In this document: positions 10,801-49,597 of the stretch, piece by piece
Position numbering within the stretch: position 1 is the first letter of the stretch
Layout of the letters: every line of letters starts with the position of its first letter
From: Streptomyces sp. NBC_00569
GTDB taxonomy: Bacteria; Actinomycetota; Actinomycetes; Streptomycetales; Streptomycetaceae
Assembly: GCF_036345255.1 (NCBI RefSeq)
Contig: NZ_CP107783.1
Coordinates: forward strand, 6,680,001 to 6,744,000
Reading direction: 5' to 3'
DNA length: 64,000 nucleotides
Notes under the pieces: model-generated
Databases searched by the model: none
Seen by the model: the letters and a program-made list of their open reading frames with translations, nothing else
Told to the model about the DNA's origin: nothing
Position numbers and translations under genes: made by a program

Positions 10801-10814
10801 CTCATGGCGGGTGG

Positions 10815-13491: not shown

Positions 13492-13514
13492 AACCTGCCG
13501 CCGGAACAGTTGAG

Positions 13515-15018: not shown

Positions 15019-15024
15019 CGGTGG

Positions 15025-30315: not shown

Positions 30316-30546
30316 TCAGGGCGACATCCGATCGAGCAGCCGCTCGTGCTCGTCCTCCGGGACCTGCTCGCCCGACGAGGGCAGGAGCTGGGGGATGCCG
30401 TCGACGATCGGGTAGCGGCGCCGCAGCCGGGGGTTGTAGAGCGCCTCGCCCGACAGGAGGGCGTCCTCCCCGGGCGGGAGGAGGTGCAGCGGGCCCTTGT
30501 CGAGCGGACAGGCCAGGATCCTGAGCAGCGGGTCATCGGGCTTCAC
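30316..30546 (-). CDS. Trm112-like small protein lacking most zinc cysteines
   Basis: The 76-residue protein has the Trm112/UPF0434 pattern (LLRILACPLDKGPLHL, then RRRYPIVDGIPQLLP). Trm112 proteins usually have CxxC zinc pairs and activate methyltransferases. Here only one Cys remains, so the zinc site is lost. GTG 30546 has AAGGAG ten bases upstream, inside the end of the transporter gene, which it overlaps by 14 bases. Its place last in a block with two methyltransferases is suggestive. Confidence 0.8.
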   Translation of the reverse strand: MKPDDPLLRILACPLDKGPLHLLPPGEDALLSGEALYNPRLRRRYPIVDGIPQLLPSSGEQVPEDEHERLLDRMSP

Positions 30547-31480
30547 GGTGGGTCAACTCCTTGGCGGGCGAGGGTGGTGGGGGCGGCTGGTCGTCGTGCT
30601 TCGGCATGAGGAGCAGGACGGACACGGCGAGGACCGTGCCGGTCAGGCGCAGCGCCAGGGGCACCGGCTCGCGCGGCAGTGGCTCGCCGAACGCGAGTGT
30701 GCCGAGCACGGCCGTGAACAGGCACGTCACCGTCGAGCACACCGGCACGATGAGGGAGGCGCGGCACCGCTGGAGCGCCGCCTGCGACATGACGAGCCCG
30801 AACCCGCCCGTGCACAGCAGTAGATAGGGGTAGGGCGAGGTCAGCAGGTGCAGCGCGGCCGCGCCGAGCCGGTCCGTGGTCAGATATCCGGCCACCCCCT
30901 TGATGGCCAGCGAGCTCACGCCGTAGAGCAGGCCCACCGCGACCCCGTACTCGACGCCGGCCGTCGGGAGGCGGTGCCGGCGGCGCGTTCTGCGCTCGGC
31001 GAGGCCGTACAGGAGGAGCCCCGCCGCGAGCGTCGGCACGCACACTCCGAGGATCAGCGCGGCGGGTGCGCCCTTGCTGACGGTGTCGCTTCCCTGGCGC
31101 AGGGACAGTACGACCATGAGGAGCGCGGCGAGGATCGCGCCGATCGCGTACCGCTCCCGGCCCGTCGTGCGTTCCCCGAGGAGGGCCGAGGACAGGAGCA
31201 GCAGGAGGACGAGGCCGGAGACGAAGATGGCCTGCGCGGCGGCGATGGGAAGTGTTCTGTAGACCGCGAGCTGTGCCCCGAATCCGGCGGCCAGGGCCAG
31301 GGAGCCGCCGAGCCACAGGGGGCTGCCGGCGACGAGGCGCACCAGATGGGCCGGGCGGCGCACACTGACCTGAGGCAGCGCGGCGAGTGCCCGCTTCTCC
31401 AGGACGAACCCGGTGCTGTAGAGGACGTTCGCGAGCAGCGCCGCGCCGACACCCCACCACATGGCGGTCATCCCGCTCAC
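30533..31480 (-). CDS. DMT/EamA-type membrane transporter
   Basis: The 315-residue protein has about nine to ten hydrophobic helices in two repeats (first MWWGVGAALLANVLYSTGFVL, second VEYGVAVGLLYGVSSLAIKG), as in the drug/metabolite transporter superfamily. The C-terminal tail is proline-rich and polar. Its GTG start overlaps the upstream methyltransferase stop as GTGA. In an envelope glycan operon such a protein could flip a lipid-linked sugar, as ArnE/F-type DMT proteins do. This is inference only. Confidence 0.8.
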   Translation of the reverse strand: MSGMTAMWWGVGAALLANVLYSTGFVLEKRALAALPQVSVRRPAHLVRLVAGSPLWLGGSLALAAGFGAQLAVYRTLPIAAAQAIFVSGLVLLLLLSSALLGERTTGRERYAIGAILAALLMVVLSLRQGSDTVSKGAPAALILGVCVPTLAAGLLLYGLAERRTRRRHRLPTAGVEYGVAVGLLYGVSSLAIKGVAGYLTTDRLGAAALHLLTSPYPYLLLCTGGFGLVMSQAALQRCRASLIVPVCSTVTCLFTAVLGTLAFGEPLPREPVPLALRLTGTVLAVSVLLLMPKHDDQPPPPPSPAKELTHREAR

Positions 31481-32208
31481 GTCTTCCTGGCGTGCAGCAG
31501 GAGGATCGAGGAGAGGGACGGCGCCGCGCAGGCGAGCCGGTCCAGGGGGCGCAGCGGGCGCGGCACCCCGTGGAAGGGCGCGCCCGTGACCCGTACGACG
31601 TCGAAGCCCGCGGCCGCCACGAACGAGCGCAGCGCGCGGGCCGTGTACAGCCGCAGATGGCCCACGACCTCGGTGCCCGGGCGGCCGTGCACCCCGCGCA
31701 GGCTGACCTCGGAGAAGACGGGCTGCACCCCGGCGAGCAGCAGCGCCCGGTTGTACCAGGCGGCGAGGTTCGGCGTGGACAGCATGAGATGGCCGCCGGG
31801 GCGCAGGATCCGGCGGATCTCGTCGAGCGCGGCATCCGGGTCGACGAGGTGCTCGATCACCTCGCTGAACAGGACGGCGTCGGCGGATCCCGCCGCGAAC
31901 GGCAGCCCGCTCGCGGTGAGTTCACCGCGCACCACGTCCGGGATGCGGGCCCTGGCCCGCTTGAGGGCGTCCTGCGACCAGTCGACGCCGACGATGCGGT
32001 GGCCCGCGAGGAGCGGCGCCGCGGTGGCCGCGGCCTGTCCGTCGCCGCAGCCGATGTCGACGACCGTGGCGGGGAAGGGCGCGGGCCGGCCGAGCGCGGC
32101 GGCCAGCGCGCGGGCCTGGCGGTGGGAGCGCTGTTCGCCGGAGGCGACCGGGGTGGCCGGGTCCTCGTAGAAGTCCCGCAGTCCGGGCGGGGCGGACGTG
32201 GTCGTCAT
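31477..32208 (-). CDS. Class I SAM-dependent methyltransferase
   Basis: The 243-residue enzyme has motif I ATVVDIGCGDGQAAA (residues ~47-60), the acidic loop IVGVDWSQDALK, and SADAVLFSEVIEHLVDPDAAL followed by ILRPGGHLMLSTPN. These are standard for UbiE/methyltransferase-11 proteins acting on small molecules or sugars. It is coupled by 4-base overlaps on both sides (ATGA with the acyltransferase, GTGA with the transporter). Confidence 0.87.
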   Translation of the reverse strand: MTTTSAPPGLRDFYEDPATPVASGEQRSHRQARALAAALGRPAPFPATVVDIGCGDGQAAATAAPLLAGHRIVGVDWSQDALKRARARIPDVVRGELTASGLPFAAGSADAVLFSEVIEHLVDPDAALDEIRRILRPGGHLMLSTPNLAAWYNRALLLAGVQPVFSEVSLRGVHGRPGTEVVGHLRLYTARALRSFVAAAGFDVVRVTGAPFHGVPRPLRPLDRLACAAPSLSSILLLHARKT

Positions 32209-33503
32209 GGCGTCGCCTCCTGCGTCGCGTGCAGGTAGTGCTCGAACAGGTCCCGCAGCCGGTCGCCGTCACCCGGCCCGAGCAGGGTGCGTGACCAGCG
32301 CAGGGCGAGGTGCAGCCGGCCGGCCGTGGACGCGGTCGTCACGGTCAGGCCGCGCGGCATGCGCGCGGGGGCCGAGAACCAGACGGCGTGGGCGCGGCCC
32401 GCGTCACCGAAGTCGAGCGGGTAGGGGACGCGGCCGATGTTGCTGAGCAGCGTGGTCGACGTCCAGGGTGCGGCGGCCCTGCGCAGCCCGCGGGTGACCG
32501 CGGCGCGCCAGGCGACCGGGGCGAGCGGGGCGGTGAGGAGGGCGGCGCCGTGACCGAGCTGGGGCCGGTCGAGGGCCTTGAGCGCCCTGGTGCGGACCGA
32601 GGTGCGGTGCAGCAGGAGCGGAATGCCGGTGGCCGTCAACTCCGCCGGTTCGAAGGTGACTTCGACGAGCCGGGTGCCGTTGCCGATGGGCATGTCCGCG
32701 CCCCGGGGCCGGTCGTCCACCGGCATCGTGATGCGCAGGGGACGCGGGCGCGCGCCGTGCTCCCTGTTCCAGTGCGTGATCATCAGGGCGGTGGCGGCCA
32801 TGAGCTGGTCGTTGACGGTGTACGGGGCGCCGGCGGGCCGGTGCGGCACGGGCAGGTCCGCGACCAGGAGGCCGTTACCGGGCGAGAGGGCGGGTGAGGT
32901 GTCGGGGGTGCCGGGCGCGACGCGGGCGGGCGGGGTCCACGGCGAGGGCCCGCGCAGGGCGGGCCCCGGCGCCCCGGGCGGCGCCCGGTGGGGCGCCGGC
33001 GCGCCGGGGGCGTCGTCGTGGTCCCCGTAGATCTCGGCCGCCGTCGCGAGGACGCGCAGACAGGCCGGGCCGTCCAGAGCGGTGTGGTTGATCGTGAGGA
33101 ACAGGACCGCGGCACCGTCCTCCCGCTCCCGCAACACCTCCAGACGGATCGGCGGCGACGCGGTCAGCGGCGGGGCGTGCGTCAGCGCGCGCGTCCTGGC
33201 CCTCTTGAGCGCGTCCGGTCCCGGCGGCGGGAAGGTGACCACGTCCACATCGGGGCCGCGGGTCAGCTCCCACTCGTAGCGCCGCCGGTACCAGGGGCCC
33301 GCCGCCTCCCGCATCAGGATGCGCGGATGGCGGCGCAGCGCCTCGGCGAAGGCGGCCGTCAGCCTGGCGGGGTCCGGGGCGCCCGGCAGGTGGACCTCGA
33401 TGTGGACGGTCTCCGGCTCCTCGTCCTGGAGACAGTGCCGGGCGACCTCGTCGACCACGGGAAACGGGACGCGCCGCGGCGCGACGGGGGCCGGCACGCT
33501 CAT
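32205..33503 (-). CDS. Condensation-domain-like acyltransferase (HxxxDG)
   Basis: The 432-residue protein has the two-lobed chloramphenicol-acetyltransferase/condensation fold. The catalytic motif is NHTALDG (HxxxDG, near residue 135). A second-lobe block has LLSNIGRVPYPLDFGDAG, comparable to the DFGWG-type structural motif. Relatives are PapA-type acyltransferases that esterify envelope lipids or sugars. ATG 33503 overlaps the upstream glycosyltransferase stop (ATGA), so it belongs to the glycan operon. An acyl decoration of the glycan is inferred. Confidence 0.82.
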   Translation of the reverse strand: MSVPAPVAPRRVPFPVVDEVARHCLQDEEPETVHIEVHLPGAPDPARLTAAFAEALRRHPRILMREAAGPWYRRRYEWELTRGPDVDVVTFPPPGPDALKRARTRALTHAPPLTASPPIRLEVLREREDGAAVLFLTINHTALDGPACLRVLATAAEIYGDHDDAPGAPAPHRAPPGAPGPALRGPSPWTPPARVAPGTPDTSPALSPGNGLLVADLPVPHRPAGAPYTVNDQLMAATALMITHWNREHGARPRPLRITMPVDDRPRGADMPIGNGTRLVEVTFEPAELTATGIPLLLHRTSVRTRALKALDRPQLGHGAALLTAPLAPVAWRAAVTRGLRRAAAPWTSTTLLSNIGRVPYPLDFGDAGRAHAVWFSAPARMPRGLTVTTASTAGRLHLALRWSRTLLGPGDGDRLRDLFEHYLHATQEATP

Positions 33504-36500
33504 GCCGATCCTTCCTGTGAGGGGCCGCCGGGCGGCCGCGGCGGATCGGCCGGGGTCCTCGCCGGCCCGCGAGTGGTCGTCAGAGCGGCGAACAGGGCCA
33601 CCAGCGCGAGGAGTTGGGCCGCCGGGCCGAAGGCGCCCGCGGACGACCGGGACGGCTCGCCGGCTCCCACCGCGGCGGCGATGCCCGCACCCGCCATCGC
33701 CAGGAACGCGATCGGGACGAGGAGCGCGTGCCGCCGCCACGCCACGAGCGCGAGCGCCGGGACGAGCAGCGCGAGCGGACCCGCGATCACCGCGCCGACC
33801 AGGGTGAGTGCCACCGTGCCGAGCAGCAGCCCGGGCGGCGGGGCGGGCGGCGTCGCGTCGGTGTTTGCGGCGCGCCGCCGGAAGAGGGCGATCCCGGCCA
33901 GCGCGAGCACGCCCGCGGCCCCGCCGAACAGCCCCGCCTCGTACGTCCGCGCCGGTTCGTAGCTCAGCTGCACGGTGCCGCCCGCGCCCTGGGGGACGAG
34001 GAAGCCCTGCTGCCAGCCGTCCAGGCGCAGCGGGGTCAACTCCTTGCCGTCGAGGGTCGCCTTCCAGCCGTCGTTGGCGTTCTCGTACGTCGTCAGATAG
34101 GTGGCGGGGCCGGAGCCGATGGTCACCTCCTTGCGGTCGCCGAGCCAGTCGCGGATGCGCAGGGCGCGGCCGGCGGGCGGGGTGGTGGTGGGTGCGTCGG
34201 TGCGGGTGAGGGTGGCGTCGGTCAGGCGGAGGGGGCCCTTGTCCTGTGGTGCCTCCAGGGTGTGCGTGCCGGCGGGGAGAGGCAGCGACGTGGGGGCCCG
34301 CCCGCACAGGGTGACGGCGATGGGGCGGCGTTCCACGAGGTCCCTGACCGTTCCCTTCGCGCCGGTCCGGTGACGTGTGCCGTCGACCGTGACGTCCGGG
34401 CCCTTGCCGCACGGCAGGCTGAACGTGCGGGTGGGGGACGGCTGCGGGGTGCGGTACTGGTCGAGCGCCGGGAGGTACGCCTCCGTCAGGCCGACCGGCA
34501 GTTGCAGATCGGCGTCCGCCACCGGGTTGTGGACGGTGAGGGGGGCCGTCGCGGTGACGGTGATGTCCAGGCGGTCCGTGGTGATCGGGTCGAAGCGGGC
34601 CACGCCGTTCTCGTCGACGCCCGCCACGGCCGCCCCGTCCGGCGAACTGATCTCGATCTTCTCTGGGCGGGTGGAGAGGCCGCCGGCGGCGGCGAGTACG
34701 ACTTCTCCCACCGGCTGCTTGTCCGGCCAGCGCAGATGGATGGTGGGCCGGTCGCCCGCGATCCACGCCGTGGTCAGGTCGCCGTCCGTGAGATTGCGGG
34801 CCGACAGGTCGCCGCCGAGCGCGGACGTGGAGTCCGCGGTGGCCGTGACGCGATGGCGCTGCTCGGGCGCCACCTCGTAGAGGAGCTTGTCGAACGCGTC
34901 GCCCGGAGCGGGCCGCGCGCTCGCCCCGAGGGTGTACGTGCCGCCTTCGGCGGTCGTGAACAAGCGCCCGAGGTTCGGCTCCGCGGTGGTCACGTGGAAG
35001 CTGAACTGCTGCGCGTCCGTGGAGTCCTGGGGCAGCCGGAGCAGCCGGGTCACCTGGACGCCCGGGATGTCGACGGCCAAGAAGCCCGCGCCCGCGAGAC
35101 CTGTGTGCCCCGCCTGCGCGCCCAGGATCGTGATCCGCAGCCAACTGCTGTCGCCCGCAGGCGCCTTGACGGTCTGACGCTCGCCGTTCGGCTGAAGGGC
35201 CGAGGTGGCCGAGCCCGTTTCCGTCTGTACGCGGATCCGGGTCGGCGCGGCCCTGACTCCCTCCTGCGGCAGGGGAGTCACCTGGAGCGTGCCGGGCACG
35301 GGTGTCTTCGAGGAGAACGCGATCCGCAGCCACTGCCCGTCGGGCGTGCCCGGTGTGCCCTCCGCCCACGCCGTGTCGGGGTTCCCGTCGAACGCGTTCA
35401 CCGGGTCGTACTGCGGCAGGTGGAACAGCCAGTTCCCGCTCGACGACGCCGTGACCTGCGCCGCGCCGCGCAGCACGGCGGTCGTCTGATGGCGGACCCC
35501 GTCGCCCGGCAGGATCTGCCGTGGCTTCGCCCCCGGGTCCTGCGTGCTGCCCGGGGAGTTCCGCTCGGTCGGCGTGTACGTGTACGAGGTGTTGGATCCG
35601 ACCAGGCCGAAGCGGGTGTCGGCGCGGCGAAGGCCGTCACCGGCCGTGCGCAGCGCGGGCGTACCGATGCCCGGGTGGTTGTCGCCGGTGAGGACGGTGG
35701 GCCTGCCGCGCATCGCCGGGTCGGCGGACAGCGGCAGGAGCGACTCGGGGCCGCCGCTGACCTCCGCGGTGCCGGAGACCGGCAGCAGGGCGGCCTGCCC
35801 GGGACGCCGCGCGGAGCCGGGCGCGTAGATCTCCACCGCTCGCTGGCGCGGATAGAGCCCCTCGACCTGGAGCGGGGTGCCGTCGGCGATGCGGCCGCCG
35901 GTCGTGACGGGCCCGAACCCGGTGACGCGCCGGTACCCGGACTCCTCCAGGGTGCGCTTGACGGTCGCGGTCGGTACGTAGCCCAGCTGGTCGGGGTCGA
36001 GGTCGTTGCGTACGACGACGAAGTGCAGTCCCGCCCGGCTCAAGTAGTCCTGGAGGCCGGGGACTTCACCGCCGGTGGTCAGGGCCTGCTCGACGGCGTC
36101 GAGGGCGCGGCGGTTGCCGGGTGTGCCGAACGGGACGTAGTCGCGCTGCGCCCAGCGCGAGTCGGCGAGGACGTCGAGGGGCTGGTCGATGGGGGAGCCC
36201 CAGGTGTAGATGCCGTGCGCGGTGGCGGGCACGACGAGGGCGCGCGAGTCGGGCGAGCGCTCCTTCAGCCAGTGCGCCGTCGTGTCCCAGTACGCGGGCA
36301 GGGAGCGGAACGAACCCGGTTGCAGGATCGAGCCGTTGAGGTACGGCCAGGCGAGACCCGGCAGGATCAGGACCGCCGCCAGGAGGGGCGCGTACCGGCG
36401 GTGGCGCAGGGGGCGGGCGCCGCGCGGCTCGGCCGCGACCGCCGTCACGTGCATCAGCCCGAAGGCGAGGGCGAGCCCGAGGCCGGTCTGGAACTTGTAG

Positions 36501-37627
36501 ATGTTGCGGAACGGGACCAGGCCGCCGTTCAGCCAGGACTGCACCGTGGAGTGGAAGGGTGCGCCGAGCGCGCCCCCGTACCCCGCGAGGGTGATCAGCG
36601 CGACCGTGAGGACCGTCAGGACGAGCCAGCGGCGTTCGGGCAGATCGCGGCGGGCGAGCCCCGCGAGCCCGAAGGCCGCCGCGAGCGCCGACCCGACGAC
36701 GGTCACGGCCGCCGTCGCGACCGTCCAGCCCGCGGGCAGCCAGGCCTCGCCGAAGTGCAGGTACGCCACCCAGTTCCCGGCGCCGCGCAGGGACTCGGCG
36801 GCCGACATGGTGCCCGTCGTGGTCTGCGAAGTCTCCACGTACGGAAGGAAGTTCTCGCCGTACACGCCCAGGAGGAGCAGCGGCAGGATCCACCAGGCCG
36901 TCGCGAGGATCACCGACGGGGTCCACCACGCGATCAGCTTGCGGCGGCGCGGGCCCGCCGGGCGGGAGAGGAGATAGAGACCCACCGGGAGGAGGGAGGC
37001 GAGAGTGGCCGCCGCGTTCACCCCGCCCATGAACGGGACGAGGAGCGCCGAGCGCGTCGCCGCGACGCGCGCGCTCGTGCGGTCGTTCGTGAGCGGCAGC
37101 AGCACCCACGGCAGGAACGCGCCCGGCAGGGCGGCCGCCGACGTCGAGCCGACGACGATCGTGAACGCCGGCCACAGCGCGTAGGCCACCGCGCCGAGCA
37201 GCCGGGTCCGGGGGCTGCCGATCCTCAGGCGCTCCGCGAGACGCAGGGCACCCCAGAACGCCACCGTCACGATGATCGACAGCCACAGGCGCTCGGCCAG
37301 CCACACCGGCAGATGCGTCAGCCGCGCGAGCCCGTAGTAGGGCAGCATCGGGAACGAGTAGCCGACGTACTGGTCGAAGATCCCGCCGAAGCCCGCCCGG
37401 TCGTGCCACAGGTCGCCCAGGTCCGTGAGGAACTTCCACGGGTCGAGCGCGACACCCAGCTTCGTGTCGAACGTCATGCGCCCGGGCGACACCGCCACGA
37501 ACAGCGCGAACAGCGTCGCCCAGAAGGCCAGCAGCCAGCGCCGCGAGCGCGGCCCCCGCCCGTGTCCTGGACGGGAGGGGGCGGGGCGGGCCGCCGCCGG
37601 GGGCGGCGCCTGGACCGTGCTCGTCAT
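33500..37627 (-). CDS. AftD-like alpha-(1->3)-arabinofuranosyltransferase (GT-C)
   Basis: This very large membrane protein (1375 residues) has about ten N-terminal helices (to residue ~450) with the acidic GT-C loop (SPGRMTFDTKLGVALDPW). A long extracellular part carries two discoidin-like carbohydrate-binding modules, NAFDGNPDTAW near 745 and NLTDGDLTTAW near 945. Three or four C-terminal helices (from ~1236) follow. This is the AftD/DUF3367 architecture. In mycobacteria AftD branches arabinan in the cell wall. Streptomyces lack mycobacterial arabinogalactan, so the acceptor is unknown. ATG 37627 overlaps the upstream stop as ATGA; GTG 37636 is possible. Confidence 0.88.
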   Translation of the reverse strand: MTSTVQAPPPAAARPAPSRPGHGRGPRSRRWLLAFWATLFALFVAVSPGRMTFDTKLGVALDPWKFLTDLGDLWHDRAGFGGIFDQYVGYSFPMLPYYGLARLTHLPVWLAERLWLSIIVTVAFWGALRLAERLRIGSPRTRLLGAVAYALWPAFTIVVGSTSAAALPGAFLPWVLLPLTNDRTSARVAATRSALLVPFMGGVNAAATLASLLPVGLYLLSRPAGPRRRKLIAWWTPSVILATAWWILPLLLLGVYGENFLPYVETSQTTTGTMSAAESLRGAGNWVAYLHFGEAWLPAGWTVATAAVTVVGSALAAAFGLAGLARRDLPERRWLVLTVLTVALITLAGYGGALGAPFHSTVQSWLNGGLVPFRNIYKFQTGLGLALAFGLMHVTAVAAEPRGARPLRHRRYAPLLAAVLILPGLAWPYLNGSILQPGSFRSLPAYWDTTAHWLKERSPDSRALVVPATAHGIYTWGSPIDQPLDVLADSRWAQRDYVPFGTPGNRRALDAVEQALTTGGEVPGLQDYLSRAGLHFVVVRNDLDPDQLGYVPTATVKRTLEESGYRRVTGFGPVTTGGRIADGTPLQVEGLYPRQRAVEIYAPGSARRPGQAALLPVSGTAEVSGGPESLLPLSADPAMRGRPTVLTGDNHPGIGTPALRTAGDGLRRADTRFGLVGSNTSYTYTPTERNSPGSTQDPGAKPRQILPGDGVRHQTTAVLRGAAQVTASSSGNWLFHLPQYDPVNAFDGNPDTAWAEGTPGTPDGQWLRIAFSSKTPVPGTLQVTPLPQEGVRAAPTRIRVQTETGSATSALQPNGERQTVKAPAGDSSWLRITILGAQAGHTGLAGAGFLAVDIPGVQVTRLLRLPQDSTDAQQFSFHVTTAEPNLGRLFTTAEGGTYTLGASARPAPGDAFDKLLYEVAPEQRHRVTATADSTSALGGDLSARNLTDGDLTTAWIAGDRPTIHLRWPDKQPVGEVVLAAAGGLSTRPEKIEISSPDGAAVAGVDENGVARFDPITTDRLDITVTATAPLTVHNPVADADLQLPVGLTEAYLPALDQYRTPQPSPTRTFSLPCGKGPDVTVDGTRHRTGAKGTVRDLVERRPIAVTLCGRAPTSLPLPAGTHTLEAPQDKGPLRLTDATLTRTDAPTTTPPAGRALRIRDWLGDRKEVTIGSGPATYLTTYENANDGWKATLDGKELTPLRLDGWQQGFLVPQGAGGTVQLSYEPARTYEAGLFGGAAGVLALAGIALFRRRAANTDATPPAPPPGLLLGTVALTLVGAVIAGPLALLVPALALVAWRRHALLVPIAFLAMAGAGIAAAVGAGEPSRSSAGAFGPAAQLLALVALFAALTTTRGPARTPADPPRPPGGPSQEGSA

Positions 37628-38373
37628 GGAGAACACCGCCGGAGGATGAGGAGGAGGTTCCAGGTGGCGAACTCGCGCACGCCCGGCACCTTCGCGACGG
37701 TCGCCGCGAGGAACGGCCAGTAGCGGGAGCGCGCGGAGACGACGGTGATGTCGTCACGGGCCCTGACCTGGCGCAGCGTCGGACCGATGTGATGCGCGAA
37801 GAGGTTCTCGCCGAGCGTGTGCTTGGGCGGCCTGCCCGTACGCCGCTGGTAGCGGGCGCGGGCCCGGTCGGCGCCCAGGTAGTGCCAGGGTGCCCATTCG
37901 TGACCGCCCCACGGGGAGAGCCAGTTGGTGAACGAGAGATAGACGATCCCGCCGGGCCGCGTCACCCGGACCAGCTCGCTGAGGAACGTCTGTGGGTCGT
38001 CCACGTGCTCCAGGACGTTCGAGGAGAACGTGACATCGGCCGCGCCCTCCGCGAGCGGCAGCAGATAGCCGTCCGCCACGACAGCGGGCGCGGCCGGCCG
38101 CGCGCCCAGCTCCCGCGCGTCGGGCTCGAAGAGGAAGCCGTGCGCGCCGCGCCGCCTGAACTCCCGGGTGAAGTAGCCGGACCCGCCGCCCACATCGACG
38201 ACGATCTTCCCCGCGACACCCCCGCAGACCGCCTCGACCTGGTCGGCGGCGTCGCGGGCCAGCAGGGAGTAGCAGGTCTCGGGGTCCCGCTGTTCGCGCA
38301 GGAACGCGCGGAACAGGGCGAGCGAGCGGCGGAGCGACGGGTCGGGCGGGGACGTGCGTGTCGAGTGCGTCAT
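37624..38373 (-). CDS. Class I SAM-dependent methyltransferase
   Basis: The 249-residue enzyme has motif I IVVDVGGGSGYFTREF (residues ~57-72), FLFEPDARELG, ADVTFSSNVLEHVDDPQTFL and VTRPGGIVYLSFTNW. A later region with PWGGHEWAPWHYLG is typical of actinobacterial envelope methyltransferases that sit beside glycosyltransferases. It overlaps both neighbours by four bases (ATGA) and is made with them. Confidence 0.87.
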   Translation of the reverse strand: MTHSTRTSPPDPSLRRSLALFRAFLREQRDPETCYSLLARDAADQVEAVCGGVAGKIVVDVGGGSGYFTREFRRRGAHGFLFEPDARELGARPAAPAVVADGYLLPLAEGAADVTFSSNVLEHVDDPQTFLSELVRVTRPGGIVYLSFTNWLSPWGGHEWAPWHYLGADRARARYQRRTGRPPKHTLGENLFAHHIGPTLRQVRARDDITVVSARSRYWPFLAATVAKVPGVREFATWNLLLILRRCSP

Positions 38374-39521
38374 GGCGCGGGGCTCCTCACCGCCTCGGCG
38401 GCCACGGCTCTGAACTGCCGCACCGTGTGCGCCCAGCGGAAGGCCGCGGCGCGCTCCTCGGCGGCCTTGCCCATCAGCCGGCGCCGCTGGCCGGACAGGG
38501 CCAGCGCGCACCAGGCCGCCGCGAACGACGACTCGCCGCGTGCGAGAAGCCCCGTGACGCCGTCCTCGACGGAGTCGCGCAGCCCCGGCACGTCGAAACC
38601 GATCGCCGGGGTCCCGCGCGCGGCGGCCTCCGTGACGACCAGGCCCCACCCCTCCACGGCGGAGGGGTGCAGCAGCAGCCATGCCTCGCACAGCAGCCGG
38701 TTCTTCTCGGCCTCGGAGACATGACCCATGAACTCGACGCCGGGGCCGGCGAGTTGTTCGAGCCGGTCCCGCTCGGGTCCGTCGCCGACGATGAGGAGCC
38801 GGCCGCCGGTGACCGGCCGCACCCGCTCCCACAGGCGCAGCAGCAGATCGATCCGCTTGTACTCGACGAGCCGGCCCATCGCGAGGAAGAGCGGCTCACG
38901 GGAGCGGTCCGCGCGCGGGCCCGGCTCCTCGACGCCGTTGTGGACGACGCGGATGCGTTCGCGTTCGACGCCGAGTGCCCGCAGCGCGGTGGCCGTCGAC
39001 GGCGAGACGGCCACCAGCAGACCGCGGCGCTCGGCGCCGGACAGCGCCCAGTGCTCCAGACGTCGCCCGAGCCGCGCGGCCGGCGCGAGCGGCCCGCCGA
39101 AGCGCATGCGCCACAGATCGGTGTGGACGTGGTTGACCAGGCGCAGCGTCGGGCCGCGGTGCCACAGCGGCGCCAGATACGGCATGCCGTTGCACACCTC
39201 CACGAGCAGGTCGCAGTCGCCGACCTGGCGGGCGAACGCGGAGCGCGCCCGCAGGTAGTGGCCGAGGTCGCCGCCGGCCGACACGACGCGGTAGTCACGG
39301 AACGCGGCGGGCCCGCCGCACAGCAGCGTCACCTCGTGGCCCAGGCGGGTCAGCCCGTCGGCCAGCCGGTCGACGAGGAGTTCGGAGCCGCCCGCGGCCG
39401 GGTTGCCGAGGTCGCGGTGGGCGAGGAAGACGATCCGGCGCGGCGGCGGGGGAAGCGCCGGGTGGGGACGTGCGTCGCCCGGGTGGGGCGTGCGCAGGGG
39501 GGTGGGCACGTGCTGGGGCAT
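38370..39521 (-). CDS. GT4-family glycosyltransferase
   Basis: The 383-residue GT-B enzyme has an N-terminal RIVFLAHRDLGNPAAGGSELL (donor-independent lobe). In the C-terminal lobe are LFLAMGRLVEYKRIDLLLRLWE, LLIVGDGPERDRLEQLA and the GT4 EX7E region HPSAVEGWGLVVTEAAARGTP. It probably adds the first sugars on a lipid carrier on the inner face of the membrane. The frame extends to 39752, but ATG 39521 has GGAG seven bases upstream. It is the first gene of the overlapping five-gene run. Confidence 0.9.
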   Translation of the reverse strand: MPQHVPTPLRTPHPGDARPHPALPPPPRRIVFLAHRDLGNPAAGGSELLVDRLADGLTRLGHEVTLLCGGPAAFRDYRVVSAGGDLGHYLRARSAFARQVGDCDLLVEVCNGMPYLAPLWHRGPTLRLVNHVHTDLWRMRFGGPLAPAARLGRRLEHWALSGAERRGLLVAVSPSTATALRALGVERERIRVVHNGVEEPGPRADRSREPLFLAMGRLVEYKRIDLLLRLWERVRPVTGGRLLIVGDGPERDRLEQLAGPGVEFMGHVSEAEKNRLLCEAWLLLHPSAVEGWGLVVTEAAARGTPAIGFDVPGLRDSVEDGVTGLLARGESSFAAAWCALALSGQRRRLMGKAAEERAAAFRWAHTVRQFRAVAAEAVRSPAP

Positions 39522-39792
39522 GGGTGCTCCAACTCGTCTCGGGGTGCGGAACTGTGTGGGGGGACTCGCGCGGAGCATTCGGGGACGACGCCTTTGCGGA
39601 CGCCGTTGCGGGGACTGGCTCAGGCTGCGGAACGGGGTGCCGGGGCGGCGGTTACGAAGGAGCTGTGCCGGGGCTGTGCGGGGGCCGTGCGTGAACTGTG
39701 CGGGGGGTGGGGTGGGACAGTTTTCGCCGAGCTGTTCGATGCGGCTACTCACCGAGGTGACAAATTCTCAGCTTTCCAGAGCTGACGTCTCA

Positions 39793-40803
39793 TCACATCG
39801 TGGAGGGTTCCAGCACTGTTGGGGACGAATCGGGATTCGACGGTTCGCTCCCGTCCGTACCGCCCCGTCCGCCCCTGCTCCGTACGACGAACACGGCACC
39901 CAGTGCCGCGAGCACCAGGCCGGCCGCGCCGGCCCCGAGCGGGAGCGTCGTGCCGAGAAGGCGGAGCCGGCCGCTGTCGTCGCCGGCGAGAGCTACCTGC
40001 TGCCGCTGCGTGGCCGGGGTGAACGCGATGCGCTCGCTGTCCAGGAGCACCACCGCGTCCTTCGCCGCACCGGGGGCGCGCAGCGTCTTGCGCGGGCCGA
40101 TCGCGGCGTAGACGATCCGGCCCGTCCTCGGATCGGCGACCAGCTCGATGCCGTGGTTCGCGTACCACTCCTCGGCAAGGACCTGATTCCGCTTCGGCTG
40201 TCCCACGATCGTCCCGGGCACCAGGCGTGACCCGGTCCTCGTGGCGGGGACGGTGCCGGTGAAGCGGTAGCCCTCGTAGCCCTGGATCCTCTTCGTGCCC
40301 CGGTAGGAGAGCGTGACCGTCGCGCCGAGCGTGTTGTCCCACCAGCGGTAGGCGCGCTTGTGCACGTCGAAGGGGAACTTGAGGTAGGCCTCGCCCTCGA
40401 AGGACGGCTGCTCACCGCAGCAGTGCACCGGCGCGTTGGTCCTGCGGTCGGTGACCCAGCGCTCCAGGGTCCACTGGAGCGCGTCGTGCGGGTCCGCCGC
40501 GGGCAGCGACGCGTCGGTGTCGACGGACGTGGACACGTCCCACACCGCCCGGCCGCTCTTCTCGGACGCGGCCACGTCGCCGCGCACCTGGCGCGTGACG
40601 GTGATCCGCCGGTCGTGCACGGTCTTCACCGCGCCGGTGTCGAAGTAGCTTCCGGTTCCGGTGAACACGGTCGTCGTGTCGACGTCGACGGGGGTGCGTT
40701 CGGCGCGTGGCTCGACGTACCACGCGAGCAGCGGGGCCAGGGCGAGCAGGAACGCGCCGAGACCCAGGGTGAGCAGGGAGAAAGGTGAGACGGTTCGACG
40801 CAT
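39793..40803 (-). CDS. DUF3068 (PorA-type) membrane-anchored protein
   Basis: The 336-residue protein has an N-terminal membrane helix (FSLLTLGLGAFLLALAPLLAWYV), an extracytoplasmic beta-rich domain with paired cysteines (VHCCGEQ), WWDNTLGATVTL and YEGYRFTGTVPA, and a C-terminal helix (GAAGLVLAALGAVFVV) before a polar tail. This is the DUF3068 layout of actinobacterial envelope proteins. ATG 40803 has AGGAG six bases upstream. It lies 271 bases ahead of the glycosyltransferase operon on the same strand and probably serves the same surface glycan. Confidence 0.85.
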   Translation of the reverse strand: MRRTVSPFSLLTLGLGAFLLALAPLLAWYVEPRAERTPVDVDTTTVFTGTGSYFDTGAVKTVHDRRITVTRQVRGDVAASEKSGRAVWDVSTSVDTDASLPAADPHDALQWTLERWVTDRRTNAPVHCCGEQPSFEGEAYLKFPFDVHKRAYRWWDNTLGATVTLSYRGTKRIQGYEGYRFTGTVPATRTGSRLVPGTIVGQPKRNQVLAEEWYANHGIELVADPRTGRIVYAAIGPRKTLRAPGAAKDAVVLLDSERIAFTPATQRQQVALAGDDSGRLRLLGTTLPLGAGAAGLVLAALGAVFVVRSRGGRGGTDGSEPSNPDSSPTVLEPSTM

Positions 40804-41147: not shown

Positions 41148-42440
41148 GTGCCCCCCGTTCCGTCCGGCGGCCCTGCCGCGCACAGTGCCGTGCGGCCCGA
41201 GCGCTCGGCCTGGCGCGATGTGCCCCGGCTCCAGGTGAAACGGTTCGCCGGGCTCGCGATGGCCGAGGCGCCCGCCCTCGCGGAGGACATCCTTCGGGAG
41301 ATCCGCCACGAATACCCCCACTTACCCCTCGTGCTCGACGAGTCCGGCGAGCCCATGGCGCTCGTCGGCATCCGCAGAGCCATCGAGGGCTTCGTGCAGT
41401 TCCAGCTCGCCGACGCGGAGGACCGGCCGCGCTCCCACCCGGCCGTCTTCCAGGAGTTCGGCCGCGGCCAGAGCCTGCACGGCCGCAGCCTCGACTCCCT
41501 CCAGGCCATGTACCGGCTCGGCGTACGCCTGGCCTGGCGCCGCCTCGCCGAGCTCGGCCAGCGGGCCCTCATCCCGCCGCCCGCCATGTACGAACTCGCC
41601 GAGGCGGGCTTCGAGTACCTCGACGGCCTCGTCGACCAGTCCGTACGCGGCTACGCAGAGGCCGCCGCCCGGCAGGCCGGCGAACGCCTGCGTCTCCAGC
41701 GCAAACTCATCGACCTGCTGCTCACCGAGCAGACCGGGCACGCCGACCACCCCGCACGCGGCGCCGCCGCTCCGCCCGACCCCGCGCGGGCCCTCGCCGA
41801 ACGGGCCGCGCGGATCGGCTGGCCCCTGCCCGGCCGGGTCTCCGTCGGAGTCCTCCTGCGCCCCGCGCGCGAAGCCGTCGCGCCCGCCGTCGGACAGGGC
41901 GTGCTCCTCGACATGGAGACCGAGCAGCCCCGCATGGTCGTGCCCGACCCCGACGCGGCGGGCCGCCCCGAACTCCTGCGCCGCGCCATGGCCGGCTGGT
42001 CCGGCGCGATCGGCCCGCCCGTGCCGCTGCCCGACGCGGCGAAGTCCCTGCGCTGGGCCGAAGCCGCGGTCCGGCTCGTGGAGCGCGGGCTGCTCCCGGC
42101 GGGCGAGGTGCTCCACTGCACCGAACACACCCAGGCCCTCGTGCTGCTCCAGCCCGAGGAACTCATCGACGACCTGTCGCGCCGCGCGCTCGCGCCCCTC
42201 GCCCACTGCGGCCCGACCCACGCCCGCCGCATGGCCGACACCCTCCTCGCCTGGCTGGAGACGCGCGGCGGCGCACCCGAGGTGGCCGCCCGTCTCGGCG
42301 TCCACCCGCAGACCGTCCGCTACCGGCTGCGCCAGATTCGCGAGCTGTGGGGCGACGAGATCGACGACCCGGACCGCCGCTTCGAGCTGGAACTGGTGCT
42401 GCGGGCACGGCGGTTGAGGGATCTGAGCGGCGGGCCGTGA
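41148..42440 (+). CDS. PucR-family transcriptional regulator
   Basis: The 430-residue protein has an N-terminal helical domain (RFAGLAMAEAPALAEDILREI, SLHGRSLDSLQAMYRLGVRLAWR) of the RsbR/GGDEF-like sensor type and a middle region with a degenerate cyclase-like fold. A C-terminal PucR HTH lies at about 370-425 (GGAPEVAARLGVHPQTVRYR and FELELVLRARRL). These regulators often control purine use, secondary metabolism or development. GTG 41148 has GGGAG ten bases upstream. The divergent envelope genes are possible targets. Confidence 0.87.
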   Translation: MPPVPSGGPAAHSAVRPERSAWRDVPRLQVKRFAGLAMAEAPALAEDILREIRHEYPHLPLVLDESGEPMALVGIRRAIEGFVQFQLADAEDRPRSHPAVFQEFGRGQSLHGRSLDSLQAMYRLGVRLAWRRLAELGQRALIPPPAMYELAEAGFEYLDGLVDQSVRGYAEAAARQAGERLRLQRKLIDLLLTEQTGHADHPARGAAAPPDPARALAERAARIGWPLPGRVSVGVLLRPAREAVAPAVGQGVLLDMETEQPRMVVPDPDAAGRPELLRRAMAGWSGAIGPPVPLPDAAKSLRWAEAAVRLVERGLLPAGEVLHCTEHTQALVLLQPEELIDDLSRRALAPLAHCGPTHARRMADTLLAWLETRGGAPEVAARLGVHPQTVRYRLRQIRELWGDEIDDPDRRFELELVLRARRLRDLSGGP

Positions 42441-44365: not shown

Positions 44366-45142
44366 ATGGGGCGACTCGTACCCGCCGTGACCCGGGCTCT
44401 CGACATACTCGAGCTGTTCCTGGACGGGGACGGCACGCTGTCCGCCCCGGACATCGTCCGCAAGCTCCAGCTGCCGCGCACCACCGTGCACGAGCTGGTG
44501 ACGACGCTGACCGCCCGCTCCTACCTCGTGACCGTCCCGGGTGAGCCCGGCCGCTACCGCCTGGGGGTGCGCCCCTATCAGCTGGGCAGCCGGTACGCGG
44601 AGCAGCTCGACCTCGCCGCCGAGGGCCAGCAGGTCGCCCGTGAGGTCGCCGAGACCTGCGACGAGACCGTGCACGTGGCGATCCTCGAGGACACCGACGT
44701 CATCTACATCGCGAAGGTCGACAGCACCCACGCCGTGCGGATGGTCTCCGCCGCGGGGCGCCGGCTGCCGGCGCACTGCACGTCCGTCGGCAAGATGCTC
44801 CTCGCCTCACTGCCGCAGCCCGAACTGGCGGCCCGCGTCCCCGACGACGCCGAGCTGGCGGCGATGACGGAGAACAGCATCACCGACCCCGCCCTCCTGC
44901 GCGAGGCCCTCGCCGGCATCCGGGAGCGCGGCGTCGCCGTCGAGAGCCGCGAGTCCAACCCGGACGTCAGCTGCGTCGCCGCCCCCGTGCGCGACCGTTC
45001 CGGACGGGTCGTCGCCGCGCTCTCCGTGTCGGTGCCGATGATCCGCTGGAGCGCGACCCGCGAGGACGAGCTGGCGCGGCTCGCCGTGAAGGGCGCCGCC
45101 GACCTGTCGGAGCGGCTCGGGTACCGGGGGGCCGGCCGATGA
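44366..45142 (+). CDS. IclR-family regulator of the sugar region
   Basis: The 258-residue protein has an N-terminal winged helix (LVPAVTRALDILELF, TLSAPDIVRKLQLPRTTVHEL; residues ~3-60) and a C-terminal IclR effector domain (VAILEDTDVIYIAKVDS, AHCTSVGKMLLASL, ESNPDVSCVAAPVRD). ATG 44366 has GAGAGGGGG upstream; a TTG further up lies inside the operator. It overlaps the lactonase gene as ATGA. A GTTCGA-type palindrome in front of it recurs at three other sugar promoters, so it is the likely regulator of both halves of the region. Confidence 0.9.
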   Translation: MGRLVPAVTRALDILELFLDGDGTLSAPDIVRKLQLPRTTVHELVTTLTARSYLVTVPGEPGRYRLGVRPYQLGSRYAEQLDLAAEGQQVAREVAETCDETVHVAILEDTDVIYIAKVDSTHAVRMVSAAGRRLPAHCTSVGKMLLASLPQPELAARVPDDAELAAMTENSITDPALLREALAGIRERGVAVESRESNPDVSCVAAPVRDRSGRVVAALSVSVPMIRWSATREDELARLAVKGAADLSERLGYRGAGR

Positions 45143-45987
45143 GGCCGGAGGTGGCCGTCCGTGCGGAGGCCACGCTCGGGGAGGGCCCCACCTGGGACGC
45201 GGAGGCCGGCCGGCTGATCTGGGTCGACATCCTCGGCAGCCGGGTCCACACCTACGACCCCGCGACCGGACGCCGCACGGTCATGGCCACCGAGCAGCAC
45301 GTCGGCGCGGCCAAGCCCCGGGCAGGCGGCGCGGGACTCGTCGTCAACCTCCGTGACGGCATCGGCCTGTACGGCCGCGGCGGCAGCGACTTCCGGTGGC
45401 TGCACCGCGACCCCGTGCCCGGGCGGCGCGGCAACGACGCGGCGATCGCCCCGGACGGCTCGCTCTGGGCGGGCAGTATGGCGTACGACGAGAGGCCGGG
45501 AGGCGGCAACCTCGTGCGGATCGCCGCCGACGGGACCGCGACGGAGATCCTCGGCGACGTCACGGTCAGCAACGGCACCGGCTGGAGCCCCGACGGCACG
45601 CTCATGTACTACGTCGACACCCCGACGCGGCGCATCGACGTCTTTGACGTCGATGGCCAACAGGTGCTGCAGCGACGTGAGTTCGCGGTCGTCGAGGAAT
45701 GTGCGGGCCATCCCGACGGGCTGACCGTCGACGCGGACGGCTGTGTGTGGGTCGCCCTCTGGGACGGCTCGGCGCTGCGCCGCTACACCCCGTCCGGCGT
45801 GCTCGACCGCGTCGTGGAGCTGCCCGTGAAGCGCCCGACCGCGTGCGCCTTCGGCGGCGCGGACCTCACCGACCTGTACGTCACGTCGGCCCGTGTCGGC
45901 CTCGACGCCCCGTCCCCGTACGCCGGTTCGCTGCTCGTGCTGCGCGACATGGGCCATGGGCTGGCGCAACCCGCGTTCGAGGGCTGA
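45139..45987 (+). CDS. SMP-30/gluconolactonase-type sugar lactonase
   Basis: The 282-residue beta-propeller has the metal-binding pattern of SMP-30/regucalcin: an early Glu (TLGEGPTWDAEAG), Asn in NGTGWSPDGTLMYYVDT, and Asp in HPDGLTVDADG. Such enzymes open aldonolactones, for example L-arabino- or galactono-lactone. Coupling to the IclR gene (ATGA) and the nearby arabinose genes suggests an oxidative pentose or galactose route. A perfect terminator follows. Confidence 0.88.
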   Translation: MRPEVAVRAEATLGEGPTWDAEAGRLIWVDILGSRVHTYDPATGRRTVMATEQHVGAAKPRAGGAGLVVNLRDGIGLYGRGGSDFRWLHRDPVPGRRGNDAAIAPDGSLWAGSMAYDERPGGGNLVRIAADGTATEILGDVTVSNGTGWSPDGTLMYYVDTPTRRIDVFDVDGQQVLQRREFAVVEECAGHPDGLTVDADGCVWVALWDGSALRRYTPSGVLDRVVELPVKRPTACAFGGADLTDLYVTSARVGLDAPSPYAGSLLVLRDMGHGLAQPAFEG

Positions 45988-46006
45988 GTACGGAGCGAGC
46001 GTCCGG

Positions 46007-46048
46007 AAGGTGCGGGACCCCCACGCCGGTGGGGGTCCCGCACCTTTG
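46007..46048 (+). terminator. Strong terminator after the lactonase gene
   Basis: An 18-bp perfect stem (46007-46024 with 46029-46046) with a GCCG loop and a short T stretch separates the iclR-lactonase operon from the ABC importer. Confidence 0.92.
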
Positions 46049-46094
46049 TGCTGCGCAACCCATTGACGTCGCCGCGTCCCGAACCTACGGTCCC

Positions 46095-46130
46095 GTTCGA
46101 AGTTACGAGCACCATTCGGTATATCGAACA
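46095..46130. promoter_or_regulatory. Two IclR-type sites before the ABC importer
   Basis: GTTCGAAGTTACGAGC (46095-46110) and ATTCGGTATATCGAACA (46114-46130) each resemble the GTTCGA-N4-TCGAAC palindrome. They lie 14-49 bases before the start of the sugar-binding protein gene. Confidence 0.7.
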
Positions 46131-46143
46131 GTAAGGGCAGGGA

Positions 46144-47502
46144 ATGGGACGACCTGGCCTGAACCGCAGGCAACTCCTCGCCGGACTCGGCGGGTTGACG
46201 GTGGCGGGCAGCTTCGGCTTCGCGGCGCTGGGTACGGGCGCCGATGCGCTCGCCTCCAGCGCCGGCACCCGCGTGCGCTACTGGAACCTCTTCAGCGGCG
46301 GCGACGGCTACAACATGATCGCGATGCTGAACAGCTTCCGTGAGGAGCACCCCGGCATCGACGTGAAGGACTCCACCCTCCAGTGGGGCAGCCCCTTCTA
46401 CACCAAGCTCGCCATGGCCGCGGCGGGCAACCGCGCACCCGACCTCGGCGTCATGCACCTCGGCCGCGTCACCGGGTTCTCGCCGGGCCGCCTCCTGGAC
46501 CCCTGGGACGTCGGCCTGCTCGCCAAGTACGGGGTGAAGGAAGCCGACTTCAACCCCGCGCTGTGGAAGCGCGCCGTCATCGACGGCAAGCTCTACGCCC
46601 TCCCGCTCGACATCCACGTCCAGCTCTGCTTCTACCGCAAGGACGTACTGAAGAAGGCGGGACTGCTCGGCGACGACGGGCGGATCGTGCCGGTCACGTC
46701 CACCGACGAGTGGTTCGACGTGCTCAAGAAGGCAAAGAAGGCCACGAAGAAGGGCCTGCAGACCATCGGCATGTGGGCCAACGACCAGAACTTCCAGTGG
46801 TGGTTCTTCGTCGCCTTCTACACCCAGCTCGGCGGCACCTGGTTCGACGCCACCAACTCTGAGGTCACCTTCGACACCGACAAGGCCACCCAGGTGCTGG
46901 AGTTCATGCGCCGGCACATCACCGACGGGTACTCCAACCCGAACTTCGCGGGAGCCGCCGGCGCCGAACAGTTCATCAACGGCTCTCCCTTCTGCTGGGA
47001 GGGCAACTGGTCCGTACCCGTGTTCTCCGGGGCCAAGGTCGAGTACGGCGCCACCCCGCTGCCGCCCGTCTTCGGCAAGCGGGCCACGCACGCCGAATCG
47101 CACTCCTTCGTCCTGCCGCACCAGGCCGACCGCGGCGGCGCCGCCAACGAGGGCGCCCACCAGCTCGCCGCGTACGTCGTCAGGCACGCCCGGCAGTGGG
47201 CGGCCGGCGGACACATCCCCGCCTACACGCCGACCTTGTCCACGGCCGCGTACAAGAAGCTCGAACCGCAGAACGAGTACGTCTCCGCGATGAACCACCA
47301 GGCCACCGAGCCGAAGGTGTGGTTCGCGGGCTCCACCGGCATCCTCGCCCAGCGCGTCGGCCCGATCGCCGCGTCCTCGATGCTGGGGTCCGCCAAGCCG
47401 GAGGCCGCCGCCCGCCGCATGAAGAGCACACTCGCCCAGCTCCTCGCCATGAAGAACCCCATGGACGGCAGAACCGCCGCGCAGGGAGGTGCGGTCGCAT
47501 GA
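46144..47502 (+). CDS. CUT1 ABC importer, sugar-binding protein with Tat signal
   Basis: The 452-residue protein has a twin-arginine signal (LNRRQLLAGLGGLTVAGSF) and then a family-1 solute-binding fold (VRYWNLFSGGDGYNMIAML, PDLGVMHLGRVTGF, LPLDIHVQLCFYRKDVLKKAG, SPFCWEGNWSVPVF). Tat export of such a protein is usual in Streptomyces. It is the first gene of a three-gene importer operon without its own ATPase; MsiK is the usual shared ATPase. Neighbours suggest arabinose or arabino-oligosaccharide uptake. Confidence 0.9.
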   Translation: MGRPGLNRRQLLAGLGGLTVAGSFGFAALGTGADALASSAGTRVRYWNLFSGGDGYNMIAMLNSFREEHPGIDVKDSTLQWGSPFYTKLAMAAAGNRAPDLGVMHLGRVTGFSPGRLLDPWDVGLLAKYGVKEADFNPALWKRAVIDGKLYALPLDIHVQLCFYRKDVLKKAGLLGDDGRIVPVTSTDEWFDVLKKAKKATKKGLQTIGMWANDQNFQWWFFVAFYTQLGGTWFDATNSEVTFDTDKATQVLEFMRRHITDGYSNPNFAGAAGAEQFINGSPFCWEGNWSVPVFSGAKVEYGATPLPPVFGKRATHAESHSFVLPHQADRGGAANEGAHQLAAYVVRHARQWAAGGHIPAYTPTLSTAAYKKLEPQNEYVSAMNHQATEPKVWFAGSTGILAQRVGPIAASSMLGSAKPEAAARRMKSTLAQLLAMKNPMDGRTAAQGGAVA

Positions 47503-48440
47503 CGACGACCAGCCCACAGACCGTCGTCGCGCCCGTCCGGGCGCGCACCACCGCCGGCAGCGCCGCGGTCCGCCGCAAGCAGGGCTTCCAGCACGGGGGC
47601 TGGTTCGTCGCCCCGTTCCTGGCCCTGTTCGCCCTGTTCGTGATCTGGCCGCTGTTGCGCGGCGTCTACCTCAGCTTCACGGACGCCAACATCTCCGGCG
47701 ACGGCGCGGGCTTCGTCGGCCTCGACAACTACCGCGAGGCCCTGCACGACCCCCTGATGTGGGACTCGCTCGGCCACAGCGCCTACTTCACGCTGCTGGT
47801 CGTGCCGTGCATCACGGTCCTCGCCTTCCTCCTCGCGATGCTCGCCCACCACATAGAACGCGGAAAGTGGCTGTGGCGGCTGTGCTTCTTCATGCCGTTC
47901 CTGCTGCCGTCGACCGTCGCGGGCAACCTGTGGCAGTGGCTGTTGAACCCCGGTACGGGCATGGTCAATTACGTCTTCGGCATCGAGACCCCGTGGCTGA
48001 CCGACAAGTCGTACGCGATGCTCGCCGTCGTCATCACCACGCTGTGGTGGACGGCCGGATTCAGCTTCCTGCTCTATCTCGCCGCCCTCCAGGGCGTCCC
48101 CGCGCACCTCTACGAGGCCGCGAAACTGGACGGCGCGAACGCCTGGCACCGCATGGTCCACATCACCCTGCCGATGCTGCGCAACATCACGGGCCTCGTC
48201 ATCGCCCTGCAGATCCTCGCCTCGCTCCAGGTCTTCGACCAGGCCGTCGTGATGCAGGACTTCGGTCCGGGGCCGGAGAACTCGACCCGGACCTTCGTGC
48301 AGTACACGCTCGAAGAGGGCTTCACCAGCTACCGCGTGGGCTACGCCTCCGCCATCTCCATCATCTTCTTCGTGATCATCGCGGCCGTCGCCCTCGCGCG
48401 GATGTGGCTGCTGCGCAACCGTGAGGAGGGCGCGCGATGA
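47499..48440 (+). CDS. CUT1 ABC importer, permease 1
   Basis: The 313-residue permease has six helices and a polar N-terminal tail. The EAA loop AAKLDGANAWHRMVHITLPML contacts the ATPase. It overlaps both neighbours by four bases (ATGA), so the importer components are made in step. Confidence 0.93.
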   Translation: MTTTSPQTVVAPVRARTTAGSAAVRRKQGFQHGGWFVAPFLALFALFVIWPLLRGVYLSFTDANISGDGAGFVGLDNYREALHDPLMWDSLGHSAYFTLLVVPCITVLAFLLAMLAHHIERGKWLWRLCFFMPFLLPSTVAGNLWQWLLNPGTGMVNYVFGIETPWLTDKSYAMLAVVITTLWWTAGFSFLLYLAALQGVPAHLYEAAKLDGANAWHRMVHITLPMLRNITGLVIALQILASLQVFDQAVVMQDFGPGPENSTRTFVQYTLEEGFTSYRVGYASAISIIFFVIIAAVALARMWLLRNREEGAR

Positions 48441-49577: not shown

Positions 49578-49597
49578 TCCCGAACCCTGAGGGAGAC

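Follow-up and report, generated by a model that had tools for sequence, protein, structure and literature searches.

In mycobacteria and corynebacteria, the tmaT/pgfA locus and aftD (C. glutamicum cg3161-cg3168; Rv0224c-Rv0228 and Rv0236c) bring together in one neighborhood the PgfA/LmcA protein, a family 4 glycosyltransferase (GT4), an MtrP-type methyltransferase and the arabinofuranosyltransferase AftD. The AftD of PDB entry 6w98, from Mycobacterium abscessus (PMC8698533), combines a GT-C domain with C-terminal carbohydrate-binding modules. Mycobacterial PgfA interacts with an analog of trehalose monomycolate (TMM), its C. glutamicum relative is needed for the synthesis of lipomannan (LM) and lipoarabinomannan (LAM) (PMC9678360, PMC8698533, PMC6656915), and the crystal structure of a PgfA-type protein from M. 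smegmatis suggests lipid binding (PMC8972800). Here we describe a related set of eight genes in Streptomyces sp. NBC_00569, referred to below as the cassette. It lies in a stretch of 64,000 nucleotides (the window; positions 6,680,001-6,744,000 of the single 10.3-Mb contig that makes up the genome), and positions without a locus label are window coordinates. We tentatively favor the reading that these genes form a self-contained, nearly all-or-none and mobile cassette, which makes a methylated and acylated surface glycan with a lipid anchor; its AftD-like enzyme would use a widely available polyprenyl-phosphate sugar, and decaprenylphosphoryl arabinose (DPA) would not be obligatory.

The Streptomyces cassette likewise holds PgfA, GT4, an MtrP-type methyltransferase (MT1) and AftD in one place, and these four are 25-46% identical to their relatives in loci L126 and L166 of family f4 (L denotes loci that we fetched, G genomes and f family codes). 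Family f4 has the mycobacterial-type AftD, which matches 6w98 at 1894 bits. Its gene order is AftD, an Acyl_transf_3-type protein, PgfA, MmpA (NF053599, 665 bits), GT4 and a methyltransferase, with other genes interspersed; this matches the locus described for Corynebacterineae, and the MtrP identity of the f4 methyltransferase rests on that published order (PMC7775120, PMC8698533). The Streptomyces cassette differs from the tmaT/pgfA locus in two ways: neither an Acyl_transf_3 (TmaT-type) gene nor MmpA adjoins it, and it encodes four further proteins, namely an HxxxDG acyltransferase, another methyltransferase, a drug/metabolite transporter (DMT)-type protein and a Trm112-like protein. A search of the window's genome for MmpA with one distant f4 query, run with no positive control, gave no match.

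Gene content of the cassette

The eight genes lie on the minus strand and read from 40803 to 30316. The first encodes a PgfA/LmcA-type (DUF3068, 'PorA') envelope lipid-handling protein of 336 amino acids (39793..40803), which scores 261 bits against PF11271 and 321 bits against the PgfA equivalog model NF053601 (cut-off 160) and has two hydrophobic stretches by hydropathy, at residues 8-26 and 282-300. After a gap of about 270 nt comes the GT4 gene (38370..39521; PF13692, PF00534, PF13439), whose likely start is the ATG at 39521, with a longer open reading frame from 39752. MT1 (37624..38373; PF08241), an S-adenosylmethionine (SAM)-dependent methyltransferase, is 46% identical to the methyltransferase beside GT4 in L166. 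The AftD-family GT-C glycosyltransferase of 1378 amino acids (33500..37636) scores 735 bits against PF11847 (cut-off 26) and matches 6w98 at E=1e-134. Like 6w98, it carries C-terminal carbohydrate-binding modules, an F5/8 type C module at residues 727-806 and a CBM_AftD module at residues 929-1053, both above cut-off. Its start is either the GTG at 37636 or the ATG at 37627, the latter giving a 4-nt overlap with MT1. The identities of AftD, PgfA/DUF3068, GT4 and the two methyltransferases are certain, the second methyltransferase (MT2, also SAM-dependent; 31477..32208) matching PF13489 and PF08241.

The remaining three assignments vary in strength. The protein encoded at 32205..33503 (ACYL) has by itself no Pfam or NCBIfam match; it is assigned as a condensation-type acyltransferase from its HxxxDG motif (HTALDG), which is kept in 16/16 Streptomyces homologs examined, and from a 14-sequence profile that matches condensation domains of nonribosomal peptide synthetases (NRPS) in PDB at 3e-6. 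A homolog from family f18 passes PF00668. The DMT/EamA-type membrane transporter (30533..31480) is a weak family match, under both cut-offs (PF05653, 24.2 bits vs 26.2; NF038012, 30.7 bits vs 50). The small Trm112-like protein (30316..30546), a possible methyltransferase partner, passes the Pfam cut-off (PF03966, 41.7 bits vs 22) but not that of NCBIfam (NF038101, 39.9 bits vs 77).

A preliminary description of the window had proposed this eight-gene set, joined mostly by ATGA and GTGA overlaps, and on both points it proved right. ATGA overlaps join GT4/MT1, MT1/AftD, AftD/ACYL and ACYL/MT2, a GTGA overlap joins MT2/DMT, and DMT and Trm112 overlap by 14 nt; overlaps thus link only the seven genes after PgfA. 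A PucR-type regulator (41190..42440, plus strand; PF13556, 68 bits) is divergent from the cassette and is its probable controller. A pattern search for promoters and terminators found none.

Cassette unity and spread in Streptomyces

To the genome at hand, a single contig, the preliminary description had given a Streptomyces-type origin, and the best 80 of 201 AftD relatives in named genomes are in fact all from Streptomyces. Gene order and content are conserved over these loci. Downstream genes were counted in the 56 loci whose sequence runs on for over 9 kb past the point where the AftD match starts, and ACYL, MT2, DMT and Trm112 are present in all 56. Upstream, in the 71 loci that extend over 4.5 kb ahead of that point, GT4, MT1 and the PucR-type regulator were found in 71/71 and PgfA in 67/71, the exceptions being L031, L056, L063 and L083. 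Genes in the fetched stretches were called by a simple composition script that misses some, such as AftD in L138, L140 and L142, which tblastn recovered. The conserved order and content rule out an isolated or chance operon. They also support the preliminary description, which had placed an AftD-like enzyme in an envelope-glycan operon with translationally coupled genes.

The cassette is at the same time patchy in the genus, with AftD in 82/199 sampled Streptomyces. Genome G491 has two places (L180 and L182), each matching all eight genes and the regulator, and an extra place in G441 (L181) does so as well. The 5.7-Mb genome G477 has the full set (L183) and no match listed to the phosphoribosyltransferase of DPA synthesis. 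Because content is nearly all-or-none, distribution is patchy and extra copies occur, we infer that the cassette travels horizontally between strains as a unit. In S. rimosus, aftD is among the most often recombined genes (PMC6437091).

A diverged AftD subfamily

How close is the Streptomyces AftD to the mycobacterial enzyme? A tree of 40 AftD sequences (17 from Streptomyces and 23 others), built by a quick method with midpoint rooting and with support from the Shimodaira-Hasegawa-like approximate likelihood ratio test (SH-aLRT) only, groups the 17 Streptomyces AftDs with two f18 sequences (SH-aLRT 98) and away from f4. Identity to the f4 AftDs is 30-33%. As judged from these alignments, the Streptomyces AftD is a deeply diverged, separate branch together with f18.

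The divergence extends to the first loop of the GT-C domain. In our own alignment, which defines the motif positions used here and is not a published criterion, the fifth residue of DTKLD is Gly in the window's AftD and in 17/17 Streptomyces AftDs and Asp in 23/23 others; a pattern scan found Gly in 78/80 named loci. The Streptomyces motif thus reads D/E-TKLG, unlike that of the 6w98-type AftD, from which the subfamily also differs in that DPA genes are not obligate for its carriers. In GT-C enzymes, an acidic residue of the first loop is the usual base.

The loss of the first-loop Asp would fit a different role for the cassette, namely maintenance or trafficking of an existing lipoglycan of phosphatidylinositol mannoside (PIM)/lipomannan type or lipoteichoic acid (LTA) type, with the AftD-like protein mainly a glycan-binding scaffold for PgfA, possibly of weak or no catalysis. 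In Corynebacterineae, PgfA/LmcA and MtrP do influence how LM/LAM mature and how TMM is acetylated (PMC8698533, PMC9678360), and Rv0227c interacted with AftD in a bacterial two-hybrid test (PMC6656915). We consider this role unlikely, as the GT-C domain is strongly conserved (within residues 1-700, 73 positions reach at least 95% identity over the 40 AftDs), the D/E-T-K part of the motif is kept in all 40, and the cassette has a GT4, two methyltransferases and an acyltransferase of its own.

The nearest relatives offer a further observation on donors. In the two f18 loci fetched, a family 2 glycosyltransferase (GT2) gene lies directly upstream of AftD. The GT2 of L132 is closest in PDB to synthases of polyprenyl-phosphate sugars (ArnC, 8e-13; Dpm1, 5e-11), and its match to the polyprenyl-phosphate N-acetylgalactosamine (GalNAc) synthase model is far under cut-off.

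Donor sugar

The window's genome encodes a complete DPA locus 2.3 Mb from the cassette, at about 4386337-4391157 of the contig (L093:8338-13157). All five components of the known DPA biosynthesis locus are together there: a GtrA-domain protein, phosphoribosyltransferase, PAP2 phosphatase, DprE1 and DprE2, with DprE1 at 680 bits (curated cut-off 500), DprE2 at 384 (250) and the phosphoribosyltransferase at 420 (207). Unlike in the mycobacterial setting, the locus occurs without Emb or AftA: neither the Emb arabinosyltransferase (PF04602) nor the priming enzyme AftA (PF12250) has a match in the window's genome, and the C. glutamicum control was positive for both. Their absence rules out a mycobacterial-type arabinogalactan made by the usual enzymes, in agreement with the preliminary description, which had stated that Streptomyces have none. 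PMC6194230 regards the genes for arabinogalactan as restricted to Corynebacteriales and related orders. The DPA locus of a Streptomyces and the presence of AftD in 14 families of the class-wide sample described below reach beyond that range.

The coupling of AftD to DPA is loose in Streptomyces. Among 199 genomes, 41 have both AftD and the phosphoribosyltransferase above cut-off, 41 AftD only, 31 the transferase only and 86 neither. Twelve of the 41 AftD-only genomes are single contigs, and four of the 41 (G039, G457, G501 and G562) have a weaker relative of the transferase at 160-169 bits. On the tree, DPA status changes at least four times (maximum five) among 14 Streptomyces AftDs, a count that leaves out three sequences with DprE1 but no transferase above cut-off. 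A class-wide sample of 394 genomes has 190 with strong AftD matches (193 at E<0.001) and 136 with DprE1 at E<1e-80: both are present in 93, AftD only in 97, DprE1 only in 43 and neither in 161. Among the 40 Streptomyces of that sample, 12/17 AftD carriers have DprE1 and 9/17 the transferase (AftD-DprE1, p=0.06). By family, DprE1 accompanies AftD in 35/35 carriers of f4, 2/33 of f18, 6/29 of f26, 0/14 of f19 and 0/6 of f33. Aligning AftDs from DPA-positive and DPA-negative genomes for donor-specific residues gave nothing clean. The 31 Streptomyces with the transferase and no AftD imply that another user of DPA should exist.

Since no gene of the cassette looks donor-making and the cassette appears to move as a unit, its donor would have to be widely available in the genus. 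DPA does not qualify as a general donor, because the transferase is above cut-off in only 72/199 Streptomyces, leaving 127/199 without a known one. Polyprenyl-phosphate mannose is the obvious candidate; its synthase has been a subject of study in S. coelicolor, and most Actinobacteria are said to use this donor (PMC5882110).

Several observations weigh against this reading. The genome itself encodes the full DPA locus. Over the 199 Streptomyces, AftD shows a positive association with the phosphoribosyltransferase (odds ratio 2.8, p=0.0009, with no correction for kinship), as it does with DprE1 in the class sample (odds ratio 3.6). In f17 and f26, DprE1 and AftD are less than 20 kb apart in 19/35 genomes examined (15/30 and 4/5, one further f26 genome being left unplaced). 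Neither f18 locus has MT1 or PgfA nearby, and the acyltransferase is present in one of the two, so that f18 may differ in function, and the case for polyprenyl-phosphate mannose is an argument from availability. The DPA locus, the association and the physical linkage, together with membership of the AftD family by PF11847 and 6w98, would suit an arabinofuranosyltransferase that draws on DPA from the 4.39-Mb locus and builds an arabinose-containing surface glycan, as the preliminary description predicted. What stands of that prediction is the presence of a full DPA locus, with three of its enzymes above curated cut-offs, in the same genome. Set against it, half of the AftD-bearing Streptomyces (41/82) lack a transferase above cut-off, 31/72 transferase carriers lack AftD, and 31/33 AftD carriers of f18, the nearest AftD in the tree, lack DprE1; the neighborhood of the DPA locus shows no clear difference between five genomes with AftD and six without, and Emb and AftA are missing. 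On balance we regard arabinose transfer from DPA as possible but somewhat unlikely; arabinose is less likely than the name AftD suggests, and the sugar may well not be arabinose.

Genome G047, which lacks the standard DPA genes, has a diverged pair resembling DprE1 and DprE2 (30% and 29% identity) some 6 kb away from AftD (L142:17700-19600). The pair is possibly an epimerase for another polyprenyl sugar.

The gene core in other actinobacterial families

The preliminary description had called for a survey of gene order in actinobacteria. Beyond the conserved order in Streptomyces, we fetched 20 loci, 18 of them from other families and two from Streptomyces. GT4, MT1, AftD and PgfA are all present in 14 of the 18. 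The exceptions are the two f18 loci described above, an f20 locus without MT1, and L126 of f4, in which GT4 and MT1 fall outside the stretch and are found in L166. A relative of an Acyl_transf_3 protein is in 13/18. A gene of a polA- or rpsA-type cluster (one representative of each identified by Pfam) is in 10/18, and both are in four, with the core between them.

This setting bears on a further alternative, that the set encodes a glycolipid of secondary metabolism and not an envelope pathway. Its patchy, duplicated and nearly all-or-none distribution, the condensation-type acyltransferase, and genes of acyl-CoA-ligase and carboxyltransferase type nearby would all be in keeping with such a cluster. 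The core envelope genes, however, stay together in most of the other-family loci and often near polA or rpsA, PgfA is an envelope protein, and no polyketide synthase (PKS) or NRPS was seen among the neighbors, which are only partly annotated. We therefore hold a secondary-metabolite cluster to be very improbable.

The MmpA protein is also more widespread than expected. One protein cluster (c5) has 11 members, from families f9, f17, f19, f26, f27 and f33, and each of them scores above the MmpA equivalog cut-off (311-469 bits vs 210). Six such loci above the NCBI equivalog cut-off come from genomes without DprE1 or transferase at the thresholds used (L130:13358-15364, L133:5386-7437, L135:13637-15316, L136:6064-7704, L137:6098-7756 and L141:14192-15874). 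This is contrary to the statement in PMC8698533 that MmpA has no homologs beyond corynebacteria and mycobacteria. Families f19, f33 and the other DPA-less families are presumed to be without mycolates.

A second PgfA gene in the window's genome (L095:7301-8302; NF053601, 326 bits) stands between polA and rpsA, a setting in which several other actinobacterial families keep their AftD cluster. The Streptomyces cassette may have left, or been copied from, this ancestral place. A wider proposal then suggests itself, which we regard as plausible without leaning toward it: that the mobile cassette builds an undescribed methylated, acylated glycolipid through an AftD subfamily whose donor has changed from arabinose, and that MtrP, MmpA, the TmaT-type acyltransferase, PgfA and AftD represent an envelope module of actinobacteria that is older than mycolic acids and is often located near polA and rpsA.

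A conserved protein of about 600 amino acids (cluster c6; for example L136:15305-17119) occurs near AftD in 10/20 fetched loci, in up to three copies in one. The one member tested had no Pfam, NCBIfam or PDB match, and BLAST against AftD and phmmer against PDB gave nothing.

Neighboring genes

Near the cassette, at 44387-51106, lie genes for an IclR regulator, an SMP-30 lactonase, a sugar-binding protein and an alpha-L-arabinofuranosidase. They probably serve the use of plant arabinose and are unrelated to AftD; relatives of the IclR regulator and the lactonase are near the cassette in 44/80 and 43/80 Streptomyces loci, respectively. Elsewhere in the window, a stretch of lower G+C content with few script-called genes (8400-16300) follows three tRNA genes and could be an inserted element.

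Discussion

Taking up again the reading in which a widely available polyprenyl-phosphate sugar serves as donor, the cassette can be laid out as a pathway from its gene content. In the cytoplasm, GT4 would transfer a sugar onto a lipid acceptor; MT1 and MT2, aided by the Trm112-like protein, would methylate the resulting glycolipid, and the HxxxDG enzyme would acylate it. The DMT protein may help to carry it over the membrane. Outside, the AftD-like GT-C enzyme would extend the glycan from the polyprenyl-phosphate sugar, its carbohydrate-binding modules holding the product, and PgfA would handle the lipid part. As to the acceptor, S. hygroscopicus and S. coelicolor have yielded lipoteichoic acid (PMC3196553), so that the acceptor need not be a lipomannan or LAM. 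The methylation and acylation of the glycan, foreseen in the preliminary description, are a reasonable expectation from the genes present.

How much of this is new? The excerpts of the open-access literature matches listed, subscription papers being mostly outside their scope, describe no function of AftD, the cassette or the DPA locus in Streptomyces. To that extent the preliminary claim that the set was undescribed stands; its core, however, is the known PgfA/LmcA-GT4-MtrP-AftD set of Corynebacterineae (PMC7775120, PMC8698533). What is apparently new is the remodeling of an AftD-PgfA envelope module into a Streptomyces cassette that is apparently mobile.

AftD, PgfA, MtrP and MmpA took their names from the biology of mycolates and arabinan in mycobacteria and corynebacteria, the field in which they were studied. 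Their relatives recur as a block in actinobacteria that lack DPA genes and, in Streptomyces, in an apparently mobile cassette half of whose sampled carriers lack the DPA transferase, which suggests that their original job was something else. A complete DPA locus without Emb or AftA raises the question of what Streptomyces arabinosylate. In these harmless soil bacteria, many of which naturally have no AftD, the sugar moved by AftD and the lipid carried by PgfA become testable.

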